The notes under the pieces were generated by a model. That model was given only the letters and a program-made list of their open reading frames with translations, ran no database searches and was not told where the DNA came from. Shown one piece after another: positions 22,329 through 23,820 of a stretch of DNA of 64,000 nt. Location of the stretch: the NCBI RefSeq assembly GCF_009742705.1, contig NZ_WPCU01000005.1:673194-737193 (forward strand), read 5' to 3'. How positions within the stretch are numbered: position 1 is the stretch's first letter; every line of letters starts with the position of its first letter. The DNA comes from Auraticoccus cholistanensis. GTDB lineage: Bacteria; Actinomycetota; Actinomycetes; Propionibacteriales; Propionibacteriaceae. Made by a program: the position numbers and the translations under genes.

Positions 22329-22832
22329 TCAGCGGTGCAGGGCCAGCACGTCGGGCAGCTCGGTGGGCAGGAACCACAGCAGCGGGTGGTCCTCGAGCAG
22401 CTCGGTCACCGGCGCCGGCAGACCGGGCTCGCCGACCCGTCCCGGGTGCCCGGCGAGGGCGGCGCGGGCGGCGGCCAGCGCCGGTGCGGACTGCGGCTCG
22501 TCGACGAAGACCGCGGTCGCCCACCCCCAGTCGGCGGGGTCGAGCCGGATGTGGCCGATGGCCTCCTCCACCACGGTGACCGCGGCGCGCTCGGCGTCCA
22601 GGGCGACCACGACGCGGGGGCCCTCGCCGAGCAGCAGGCTGTCCAGCGAGGCCAGCGACTGCGCCAGGTAGTCGGCCTCCTCCTCGTCGGGACCCGTGCC
22701 GTGCTGGGCCAGCAGGGTGCGGGTGGCGGCGCGGCCGTCCAGCGCGGCGCCCCCACCGCCGTCGGCCAGCTGCTCCAGACCCTGCAGGGTGACCCCGCAG
22801 AACACCATCCGCCTCGACGACCTCGCGCTCAC
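22329..22832 (-). CDS. DUF6912-like hypothetical protein
   Basis: This 167-aa acidic protein has the pattern I associate with DUF6912: a pair of beta-alpha units (VVVALDAERAAVTVVEEAIGHI, TAVFVDEPQSAPALAAARAAL) and a C-terminal HPLLWFLPTELPDVL that resembles the family's ELLWYATQEI motif. No function is known. The GTG at 22832 fits a TAGGCT box 6 nt upstream; an ATG at 22808 would match the shorter start of relatives. The CACAGCCG array lies immediately upstream of its promoter. Confidence 0.65.
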   Translation of the reverse strand: MSARSSRRMVFCGVTLQGLEQLADGGGGAALDGRAATRTLLAQHGTGPDEEEADYLAQSLASLDSLLLGEGPRVVVALDAERAAVTVVEEAIGHIRLDPADWGWATAVFVDEPQSAPALAAARAALAGHPGRVGEPGLPAPVTELLEDHPLLWFLPTELPDVLALHR

Positions 22833-22891: not shown

Positions 22892-23223
22892 CACAGCCGC
22901 TGCCCCCACCGCCTCCACAGCCGCTCCCCGCACCGCCTCCACAGCCGCTGCCCCCACCGCCTTCACAGCCGCTCGCCCATCCTCACAGCCGTTGCAGCGG
23001 CTGTGGAGCGCCAGCACCGGCTGTGAAGGCGCCCCGAACCGGCTGTGAAGACCGCGCGACGGCCCCACCAGGCCCGAGCCCACCCGGGCAGACTCCCTCC
23101 CCCAGATCCGCCGCCCTCACAGCCGCTCGCCCCTCCTCACAGCCGTTGCAGCGGCTGTGAAGCGCCAGCACCGGCTGTGAAGCCGTGCCGGACGGGCTGT
23201 GAAGGGGTGTTGGACGGGCTGTG
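22892..23223. repeat. Regularly spaced CACAGCCG / CGGCTGTG array in a 421-bp intergenic region
   Basis: Fourteen copies of an 8-bp motif lie in 332 bp. CACAGCCG starts at 22892, 22916, 22940, 22964, 22984, 23118 and 23138. Its reverse complement CGGCTGTG starts at 22998, 23018, 23040, 23152 and 23172, and the variant GGGCTGTG at 23194 and 23216. Steps are 24, 24, 24, 20, 14, 20, 22, then 78, then 20, 14, 20, 22, 22. Forward copies precede reverse copies, meeting in two near-perfect palindromes (22984-23005 and 23138-23159). A 74-bp unit (22954-23027) is repeated at 23108-23181. The extended consensus is CYTCACAGCCG. Open frames crossing it are Pro/Gln-rich or Cys/Ala-rich shadows. Confidence 0.9.
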
Positions 23224-23253: not shown

Positions 23254-23820
23254 TCAGGAGTTCCAGTGCACCAGCGCGGGACGGCCCTTGCGCTCCCCCA
23301 GCACCGACAGGGTGCCGGTCTCCATCGGGAAGGACTCCCCCCGCTCGAGGTCCAGCTCCAGCCAGATGAGCGTCAGCGCCCGCAGCGAGTGCCCGTGGCC
23401 GAAGCAGAGCACCCGGTCCAGCCCGCTGCCGCGGACCCGCTCGACGACGCGGCCGAGCCGTTCGCGGACCTGCGCCGGCGTCTCGCCGCCAGGGGTGGGG
23501 TGGGTCCACACCGTCCAGCCCGGGTCGCGCTCGCGGATCTCCTCGCTGGTGATCCCCTCGTAGTCGCCGTAGCCCCACTCGGCCAGGTCCTCGGTGACCT
23601 CGACCTGCTCGGCGGGGAAGCCGGCGATGCGGGCGGTGTCGAGGGCGCGGCGACGGGGGCTCGACAGCACGAGGCCGGGCTGCAGGTCGGCCAGCCGGTC
23701 CCGCAGCCGCTCGGCCTCGCGGCGTCCCACCTCGGTGAGCTCGAGGTCGGTGGCGGAGGTGTGGCGGCCGTCGCGGCTCCACTCGGTCTGGCCGTGGCGG
23801 ACCAGGTACAGGTCGGTCAT
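23254..23820 (-). CDS. Histidine phosphatase (phosphoglycerate mutase-like)
   Basis: This 188-aa protein has the phosphohistidine motif LVRHGQTEWS at the N-terminus, SSPRRRALDTA, the general acid region EWGYGDYEG and the second catalytic histidine in CFGHGHSLRA. The GDYEG version is typical of actinobacterial acid phosphatases and of GpmB-like members rather than the glycolytic mutase, so a broad phosphatase is the safer call. Its ATG overlaps the upstream acyltransferase stop as ATGA, so the two are co-translated. The repeat array begins 30 bp beyond its stop. Confidence 0.85.
   Translation of the reverse strand: MTDLYLVRHGQTEWSRDGRHTSATDLELTEVGRREAERLRDRLADLQPGLVLSSPRRRALDTARIAGFPAEQVEVTEDLAEWGYGDYEGITSEEIRERDPGWTVWTHPTPGGETPAQVRERLGRVVERVRGSGLDRVLCFGHGHSLRALTLIWLELDLERGESFPMETGTLSVLGERKGRPALVHWNS

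Follow-up and report, generated by a model that had tools for sequence, protein, structure and literature searches.

The fullest descriptions of REP-type palindromes come from Proteobacteria, and both their recogniser and their role at gene ends are still debated. Plasmid-origin iterons combine direct repeats at 20-22 bp with inverted half-sites, and in CRISPR loci direct repeats of about 24-48 bp alternate with unique spacers of much the same length. REP and BIME elements, as portrayed in portions of PMC3733652 and PMC3116915, are extragenic, dispersed and clustered, and occur preferentially at the 3′ ends of genes and in convergent gaps; a portion of PMC1525189 was also drawn on for the REP/BIME/REPIN comparison. 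The string "actinobacteri" is absent from the main text of PMC3733652, and part of PMC6006769 gives Actinobacteridae only subclass 1.1 of the RAYT-related Y1 transposases. Streptomyces clt/TRS sites are 8-bp repeats bound by TraB, with chromosomal relatives (part of PMC4170104). Actinobacterial MtrA boxes are GTCACAgcg direct repeats (part of PMC4285127, with part of PMC2945938 also compared), the S. coelicolor repeats being 5-6 bp each with 5 bp between (part of PMC5650626). Titles and abstract openings among the open literature searched hold no description of our motif or of such arrays in the bacterial family.

The arrays described here, one of them in a window of 64,000 nucleotides from Auraticoccus cholistanensis (the whole stretch of DNA that was analysed), have a repeat layout like that of iterons but are dispersed over the chromosome, with no Rep gene among the neighbours scanned. 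Their 8-bp repeats are like those of clt/TRS but stand symmetrically head-to-head, and no TraB-like gene was found in the genome. The core TCACAGC is in common with the MtrA box, from which the arrays differ by a 20/22 bp step, by head-to-head palindromes and by a lineage-specific word. The earlier note had set aside CRISPR and simple tandem repeats, which fits the evidence: the word is 8 bp long, successive words are mostly separated by 12-14 bp, halves are inverted, spacing is fixed and the arrays form a dispersed family.

The closest known kind is the REP/BIME-type extragenic palindrome. The likeness lies in short, dispersed, lineage-specific palindromes, head-to-head and clustered (16 arrays, 23 palindrome places; extragenic apart from L018, which overlaps a called gene 3′ end; L012 lies at a contig end), and in a 3′-end and convergent bias, with 5/15 gaps convergent in this genome and 13/15 in G134, from another genus. 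The differences are a fixed four-half-site lattice with 22/20-bp extension, half-sites conserved without a partner, and the lack of both a regular GTAG/GTGG or CGTC tag and a RAYT-type match. A simple text check around the stem feet finds GTAG/GTGG in 1/22 units and CGTC in 2/22, and the Y1 transposase (RAYT) profile PF01797 has 0 matches in the genome, with 5/14 controls positive. Because the tag is not a feature and no RAYT-type transposase was found in this genome, we do not file the family as a classical REP.

Layout of the window array

The array lies in a gap between 2 genes on the reverse strand. F and R denote forward and reverse half-sites.

22892..23223, no strand: whole array, blocks F5R3 and F2R4, half-site CACAGCC[G/C]
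22892..22991, forward strand: block 1 forward half-sites at 22892, 22916, 22940, 22964 and 22984, steps 24, 24, 24, 20
22984..23005, no strand: palindrome 1, head-to-head, CACAGCCGTTGCAGCGGCTGTG
22998..23047, reverse strand: block 1 reverse half-sites at 22998, 23018 and 23040, steps 20, 22
22958..23031, no strand: core unit 1, F-20-F-14-R-20-R, entered in alignment A1
23118..23145, forward strand: block 2 forward half-sites at 23118 and 23138
23138..23159, no strand: palindrome 2, head-to-head, equal to palindrome 1 in sequence
23152..23223, reverse strand: block 2 reverse half-sites at 23152 and 23172, and one-off GGGCTGTG at 23194 and 23216
23112..23185, no strand: core unit 2, entered in alignment A1
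22954..23204: 97-nt duplication, copies 22954-23050 and 23108-23204, 91% identity, 154 bp apart
23254..23820, reverse strand: histidine phosphatase (His_Phos_1), upstream neighbour, stop 30 bp from the array
22329..22832, reverse strand: DUF6912 protein, downstream neighbour, start codon 22832, about 60 bp from the array start

The exact 8-mer CACAGCCG/CGGCTGTG occurs 12 times. The last two of the 14 copies counted in the earlier note, at 23194-23201 and 23216-23223, are each one base different from it. The spacings given there, 24-24-24-20-14-20-22 and 20-14-20-22-22, are correct on recomputation, with the last two steps resting on the one-off copies, and the order of forward before reverse copies is found in both blocks. 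The distance of 30 bp from the phosphatase stop at 23254 to the array end is also correct, and the duplicated segment is present, at the 97 nt and 91% identity listed above rather than the 74 bp first reported. A sigma-70 scan gives no promoter near the array, and no terminator is called in its region.

The 8-mer by itself is not rare, with 15 in the window against 7.4 expected and 1/100 shuffles reaching as many. The non-random feature is the clustering and the lattice, not the 8-mer frequency. The window array is a real feature, is not confined to this locus and does not arise from noise.

A dispersed family with a fixed lattice

The A. cholistanensis genome (G000; 3.80 Mb, 17 contigs) holds 16 arrays by looser-pattern searches (L009-L022, L028, L092), with 127 CACAGCC half-sites, 126 of them with full flanks; isolated same-strand CACAGCC pairs at C5:624010, C5:738964, C8:147261, C9:517099 and C17:643045 are left out of the array count. 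The genome-wide check proposed in the earlier note comes out as non-random clustering on a lattice. The word YTCACAGCCG occurs 90 times (80 in arrays, 10 outside) against 6 for a reversed control, the pair pattern 35 times against 0 in that control, and the palindrome with up to 3 mismatches 46 times counting both strands, which is 23 places, against 2 control matches. In seven sets of sequence sampled from relatives, a first-order Markov null gives 0 lattice matches every time. The L012 array is cut off by a contig end, so the number of copies assembled in long arrays may be wrong.

Within arrays, each run of forward copies gives way to a run of reverse copies; a return from R to F occurs 8 times, always across 27-113 bp, and marks a new block. 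The F-to-R step is identical in 20/23 junctions, and the other 3 are longer by exactly one 20-bp step. An arm walk from the 23 head-to-head centres (46 arms, one cut by the contig end; one mismatch is tolerated, and one or two outer matches may be chance) finds a first outward step of 20 bp in 44 of the 45 readable arms and 21 in one, and a second outward step of 22 bp in 14 of the 17 arms having one, so that 20 + 22 = 42 bp is four helical turns. Later steps vary more, from 19 to 24, the window array having three of 24 bp. The simplest arrays consist of F-20-F-14-R-20-R and nothing more.

The word is nearly invariant, with a C-Y-Y flank, and the spacers are low in information, fixed in length and weakly constrained in sequence. 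Ten duplicated blocks have motif differences at 8/282 positions and spacer differences at 59/380 (Fisher 1.7e-8), a P value that is optimistic because motif positions are set by near-match and some L018 blocks overlap. Between loci, 44 pairs of spacers are near-identical against 21 ± 5 after column shuffling. Spacer identity between loci is mostly accounted for by the weak consensus, and the excess points to some copying between loci.

Contigs C1-C4, 730 kb in all, have zero arrays, and all 16 lie on six other contigs totalling 3.06 Mb, which may be chance (about 0.03 by simple proportion) or may reflect a chromosome domain. Of the small contigs inspected, one is rRNA and five read as N. Near position 451 of L020, CCCGGACG is repeated at 17-bp steps, not related to the arrays.

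Gene context

With genes called by a simple codon-usage caller, 15/16 arrays have both neighbours, and their gaps are 5 convergent, 8 codirectional and 2 divergent. The convergent share of 5/15 compares with 8/76 background gaps of at least 62 bp (p 0.016) and with 9.7% of gap bases (p 0.011). We regard the convergent bias in this genome as weak because two arrays are divergent and 8/15 codirectional. Among the codirectional arrays 7/8 are closer to, or overlap, the 3′ end of the upstream gene, L013 being the exception. Among the 33 neighbour genes, the 32 scanned (30 and the window array's two; the remaining one adjoins a minor pair at L093) have no common function.

Some neighbourhoods deserve description on their own account. 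A FAD monooxygenase frame has its called 3′ end inside the array at L018:2970-3455; the last ~95 codons of the frame are array sequence, and it looks as if the array grew or inserted into the gene end. At L010:3191-3583 there is an RNase P RNA gene with its 3′ end toward the L010 array at ~74 bp. A Ku gene is one gene away from the window array, and the DNA-repair-like genes near the window, L016, L017 and L019 arrays are Ku, RecR, a Y-family polymerase and a spore photoproduct lyase. Ku relatives in the genome_contigs collection lie at at least 4 distant loci and are uninformative for the window gap.

Distribution of the exact word

The exact pattern has 1 positive among 57 genomes and 1 among 394 class genomes, in both cases A. 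cholistanensis itself, and 6 positives among 198 family genomes, with more than 3 matches in A. cholistanensis only. The other family matches, one each in G111, G014, G123 and G178 and three in an 18-bp tandem repeat in G143, are not arrays. The genome_contigs collection, from which this genome and near genomes may be left out, gave 0 stretches. A first search of viral contigs found 23 matches, each on its own and 22 with a 21-bp step, which we took as coding repeats, and two further searches found 0. Two plasmid/phage records, one covering 20% of the query and one 22%, were taken as chance, and a further search of plasmids and phages found no match.

The earlier note had named the same gap in close relatives as a test, and the array is missing from it in one relative, G015, where the phosphatase stop and a GTG, a potential DUF6912 start, are 31 bp apart. 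The same-genus genome G001 has no exact-word array; its region is rearranged, with the phosphatase and DUF6912 genes 2.1 kb apart and no array there or in the stretch after PhoH.

Relatives with other words

A sequence-only profile, R1, was built from 22 core units of A. cholistanensis and run over the 198 family genomes, scoring 24 candidates per genome, which makes the counts lower bounds. It matches in 8/198, A. cholistanensis included. In G134 at least 23 matches correspond to at least 13 units at at least 12 loci, with a best E of 4.7e-10. These units read CACACCCC at 20-14-20, their outer ends GTCCCCCACTTCACACCCC are nearly invariant, and the copies are alike, with 83% mean column identity. 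A 14th unit lies in the flank of a locus; in 7/14 all four half-sites are intact, and in the other 7/14 one of the inner half-sites is degraded. Two units with the word CACAACCC, spaced 19-14-19, occur in G029, and a single palindrome of ~70 bp in G015.

A reciprocal profile, R2, built from 14 G134 units, recovers 13/16 A. cholistanensis loci at E ≤ 0.001 (best 3.7e-10), L028 following at 0.002 and L013 at 0.08, and L092 being absent from the matches listed; it matches G015 at E 4e-15 and G029 at E 6e-8. It also finds two more G134 units in 200 kb of blindly chosen sequence, for 16 seen in total and an estimate of ~47 per genome with wide error. R1 on 780 kb of G001, G018, G020 and G004 stretches reaches a best E of 0.007, and R2 on 540 kb of G001 has nothing at E 0.1. 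By these matches, three other genera have related elements built on other words, multi-copy in G134, two in G029 and one in G015.

The G134 units occupy 15 gaps, of which 13 are convergent, 2 codirectional and 0 divergent, against a background of 12/86 (14%; gaps of at least 84 bp in blindly chosen stretches, with two element-bearing gaps counted in), p 6e-10. Both blind-sample units are in convergent gaps.

Several weaker candidates were set apart. The profile matches L225 and L228-L231 were dropped as chance or coding by eye, and the lattice matches L170 (G018) and L165 (G001) were dropped because they resemble coding repeats. G133, in the genus of G134, has a candidate palindrome at L245:12455-12520 with TGCGCCC half-sites at 20-14-20, and no second lattice match in 220 kb. 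G034, of another family in the same order, has one with a 19/20-bp in-arm repeat at L289:3080-3170. In G001, L143:15204-15972 is a six-fold tandem array of ~121-bp units containing palindromes with another word.

Palindromes in a further genus

In 280 kb of G004, from a further genus, 3/9 long palindromes have an exact 19-bp in-arm repeat, and two more have it on a looser reading (L253 by loose scan, L252 by eye), so that 3/5 pass the strict criterion. The five are:

L180 9758 and L180 9975: palindromes with 19-bp in-arm repeat
L252 17285: palindrome with 19-bp in-arm repeat
L253 2562: palindrome with 19-bp in-arm repeat
L254 16086: perfect palindrome with 19-bp in-arm repeat

They have a different word at each locus and 5/5 are in convergent gaps. 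With or without the in-arm repeat, 7/9 long palindromes are in convergent gaps against 13/112 background gaps, and the location is therefore not special to the in-arm repeat. In-arm lag counts over all sampled genomes peak at 19-20, with 8 counts from 7 palindromes against ~1.2 expected from shuffled arms, and any in-arm repeat is found in 7/24 long palindromes against a shuffled mean of 2.98 and maximum of 7 in 50 shuffles, a modest excess. A looser lattice scan gives 31 matches against a null of 7.5, and is noisy because the matches scatter over 25 centre/lag combinations. These figures weaken the case for in-arm repeats as a general feature. Because the word changes from locus to locus, a single sequence-specific protein fails to explain G004. 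A structural or mutational origin might account for its locus-specific words, and these palindromes, from small samples, may be a different phenomenon.

Duplex half-sites or hairpins

Single units fold into strong hairpins, with z from -3.8 to -7.8 in 6 sequences. Complementarity of left and right spacers is not above that of shuffled partners in 22 A. cholistanensis units (3.91 against 4.53 ± 0.34 of 10, P 0.97). Covariation is absent in the same number of units from this genome, with 75.3% of cells paired against 77.2 ± 0.9 shuffled, and in 14 G134 units, with 74.7 against 77.8 ± 0.9. All 5 of the 5 A. cholistanensis palindromes with one damaged half (L009, L014, two in L016, L017) retain an intact other half, and 39/127 half-sites have no pairing partner in their own block. 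The longest T-run within 30 nt after an array, or A-run before it, is 2 at 16/16 arrays, short of what an intrinsic terminator calls for. Rfam has nothing over the arrays (the window and 15 loci), its sole matches being rnpB, tRNA and a TPP riboswitch, all outside them. Half-sites read in duplex DNA are favoured over a conserved hairpin because the arms lack covariation and those 39/127 half-sites are unpartnered.

Interpretation

The family combines a strict geometry, a constrained motif and dispersal with a gene-end bias that is weak in A. cholistanensis and strong in G134, and it has other-word relatives in three genera. The reading that we prefer, at a probability of about one half, is a lineage-specific REP-like extragenic family that has expanded into arrays here, with a proposed role at gene ends and half-sites that would be recognised by a protein. 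The real unit would be the short half-site C-Y-Y-C-A-C-A-G-C-C-G, which a putative protein would read on the DNA duplex. Four half-sites would form the core, F-20-F-14-R-20-R over 62 bp, which could accommodate two symmetric dimers separated by about two helical turns. Further half-sites would extend the element outward, mostly in steps of 22 and 20 bp (42 bp, or four turns), and therefore the core can serve as a possible nucleation site with cooperative extension. The elements would be copied, by some mechanism, to many intergenic sites, mostly beside gene 3′ ends, with arrays growing by local duplication. The most likely host role would be to mark or insulate the ends of transcription units, above all between convergent genes. 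Against this reading stand the G134 units with one degraded inner half-site, the strong unit hairpins, the convergent placement of G004 palindromes with or without an in-arm repeat, the locus-specific words of those that have the repeat, and the weak bias in A. cholistanensis, and no cognate protein was found in the searches.

A purely selfish MITE- or REPIN-like element, whose half-sites are transposase sites, with no host function and with survival where insertion is harmless, as in convergent gaps, is rather unlikely. In its favour, the family is dispersed and lineage-specific, the array is missing from the G015 and G001 gaps examined, the G134 copies are uniform with nearly invariant outer ends, the L018 array extends into a gene end, and REPs favour convergent and unidirectional gaps in the account given in part of PMC3733652. 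It sits poorly with the absence of a RAYT-type Y1 transposase from A. cholistanensis and with a spacer length that is constant despite drifted spacer sequence; no target-site duplication was recognised by eye, and no autonomous element appears in the stretches taken.

That the elements work as RNA hairpins, terminating transcription in both directions with no U-tract, is distinctly unlikely. Strong folding of units agrees with it, as do the convergent placement in G134 and in 7/9 G004 long palindromes, including all five with in-arm repeats, and the good pairing of the G004 palindromes despite their differing words. Compensatory changes are absent from the units of A. cholistanensis and G134, and the unpartnered half-sites, the two arrays in divergent gaps, the short flanking T- and A-runs and the lack of a terminator call in the window region all count against it.

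It is very improbable that the arrays are operators through which a transcription factor controls the genes beside them. Direct and inverted half-sites at helical spacing would suit it, and some arrays sit upstream of regulator-like genes (TetR, NrtR-like, and an HTH with an EPSP-synthase domain), but 5/15 arrays face two 3′ ends and the flanking genes share no theme. The earlier note had offered a protein-binding array or a mobile repeat, which fits a motif conserved independently of pairing, fixed spacing and dispersal. The part of that proposal that made it an operator of DUF6912 is unsupported, because 15 further loci carry arrays, 5/15 of the classifiable arrays are convergent, and the neighbours are mostly unrelated housekeeping genes.

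A site for a segregation or DNA-transfer machine, ParB/Noc-like or TraB-TRS clt-like, is scarcely credible: clusters of an 8-bp word are dispersed over the chromosome, as for TraB in part of PMC4170104, but the arrays are symmetric, not polar, A. cholistanensis has one ParB_N match, as do most relatives (a diverged paralogue could be missed), and it has no small TraB-like FtsK above cut-off, its PF01580 matches above cut-off being only in open frames of 882 and 1694 aa, with one weak match below. A neutral minisatellite growing by slippage can be dismissed as just as improbable, since local duplications inside arrays are set against one word at 16 loci, a fixed lattice, head-to-head symmetry and motif constraint.

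Significance

Returning to the preferred reading of a protein-recognised family at gene ends, the same layout with differing words in relatives suggests fast-changing protein docking sites at gene ends. A wider proposal, tentative and with the odds against it, is that one actinobacterial family has a class of elements at gene boundaries that keeps a geometry of ~20-14-20 while the word turns over (CACAGCCG, CACACCCC, CACAACCC, and in G004 possibly per locus). If true, this turnover would imply either that a DNA-binding protein co-evolves rapidly with its word or that some mechanism creates such palindromes afresh between convergent genes. The arrays described here belong to an actinobacterial family of elements that follows a sharp geometric rule and has its own lineage-specific version in each of several genera, offering a comparative, testable system for the marking of convergent gene ends and for the co-evolution of a DNA word and its reader.
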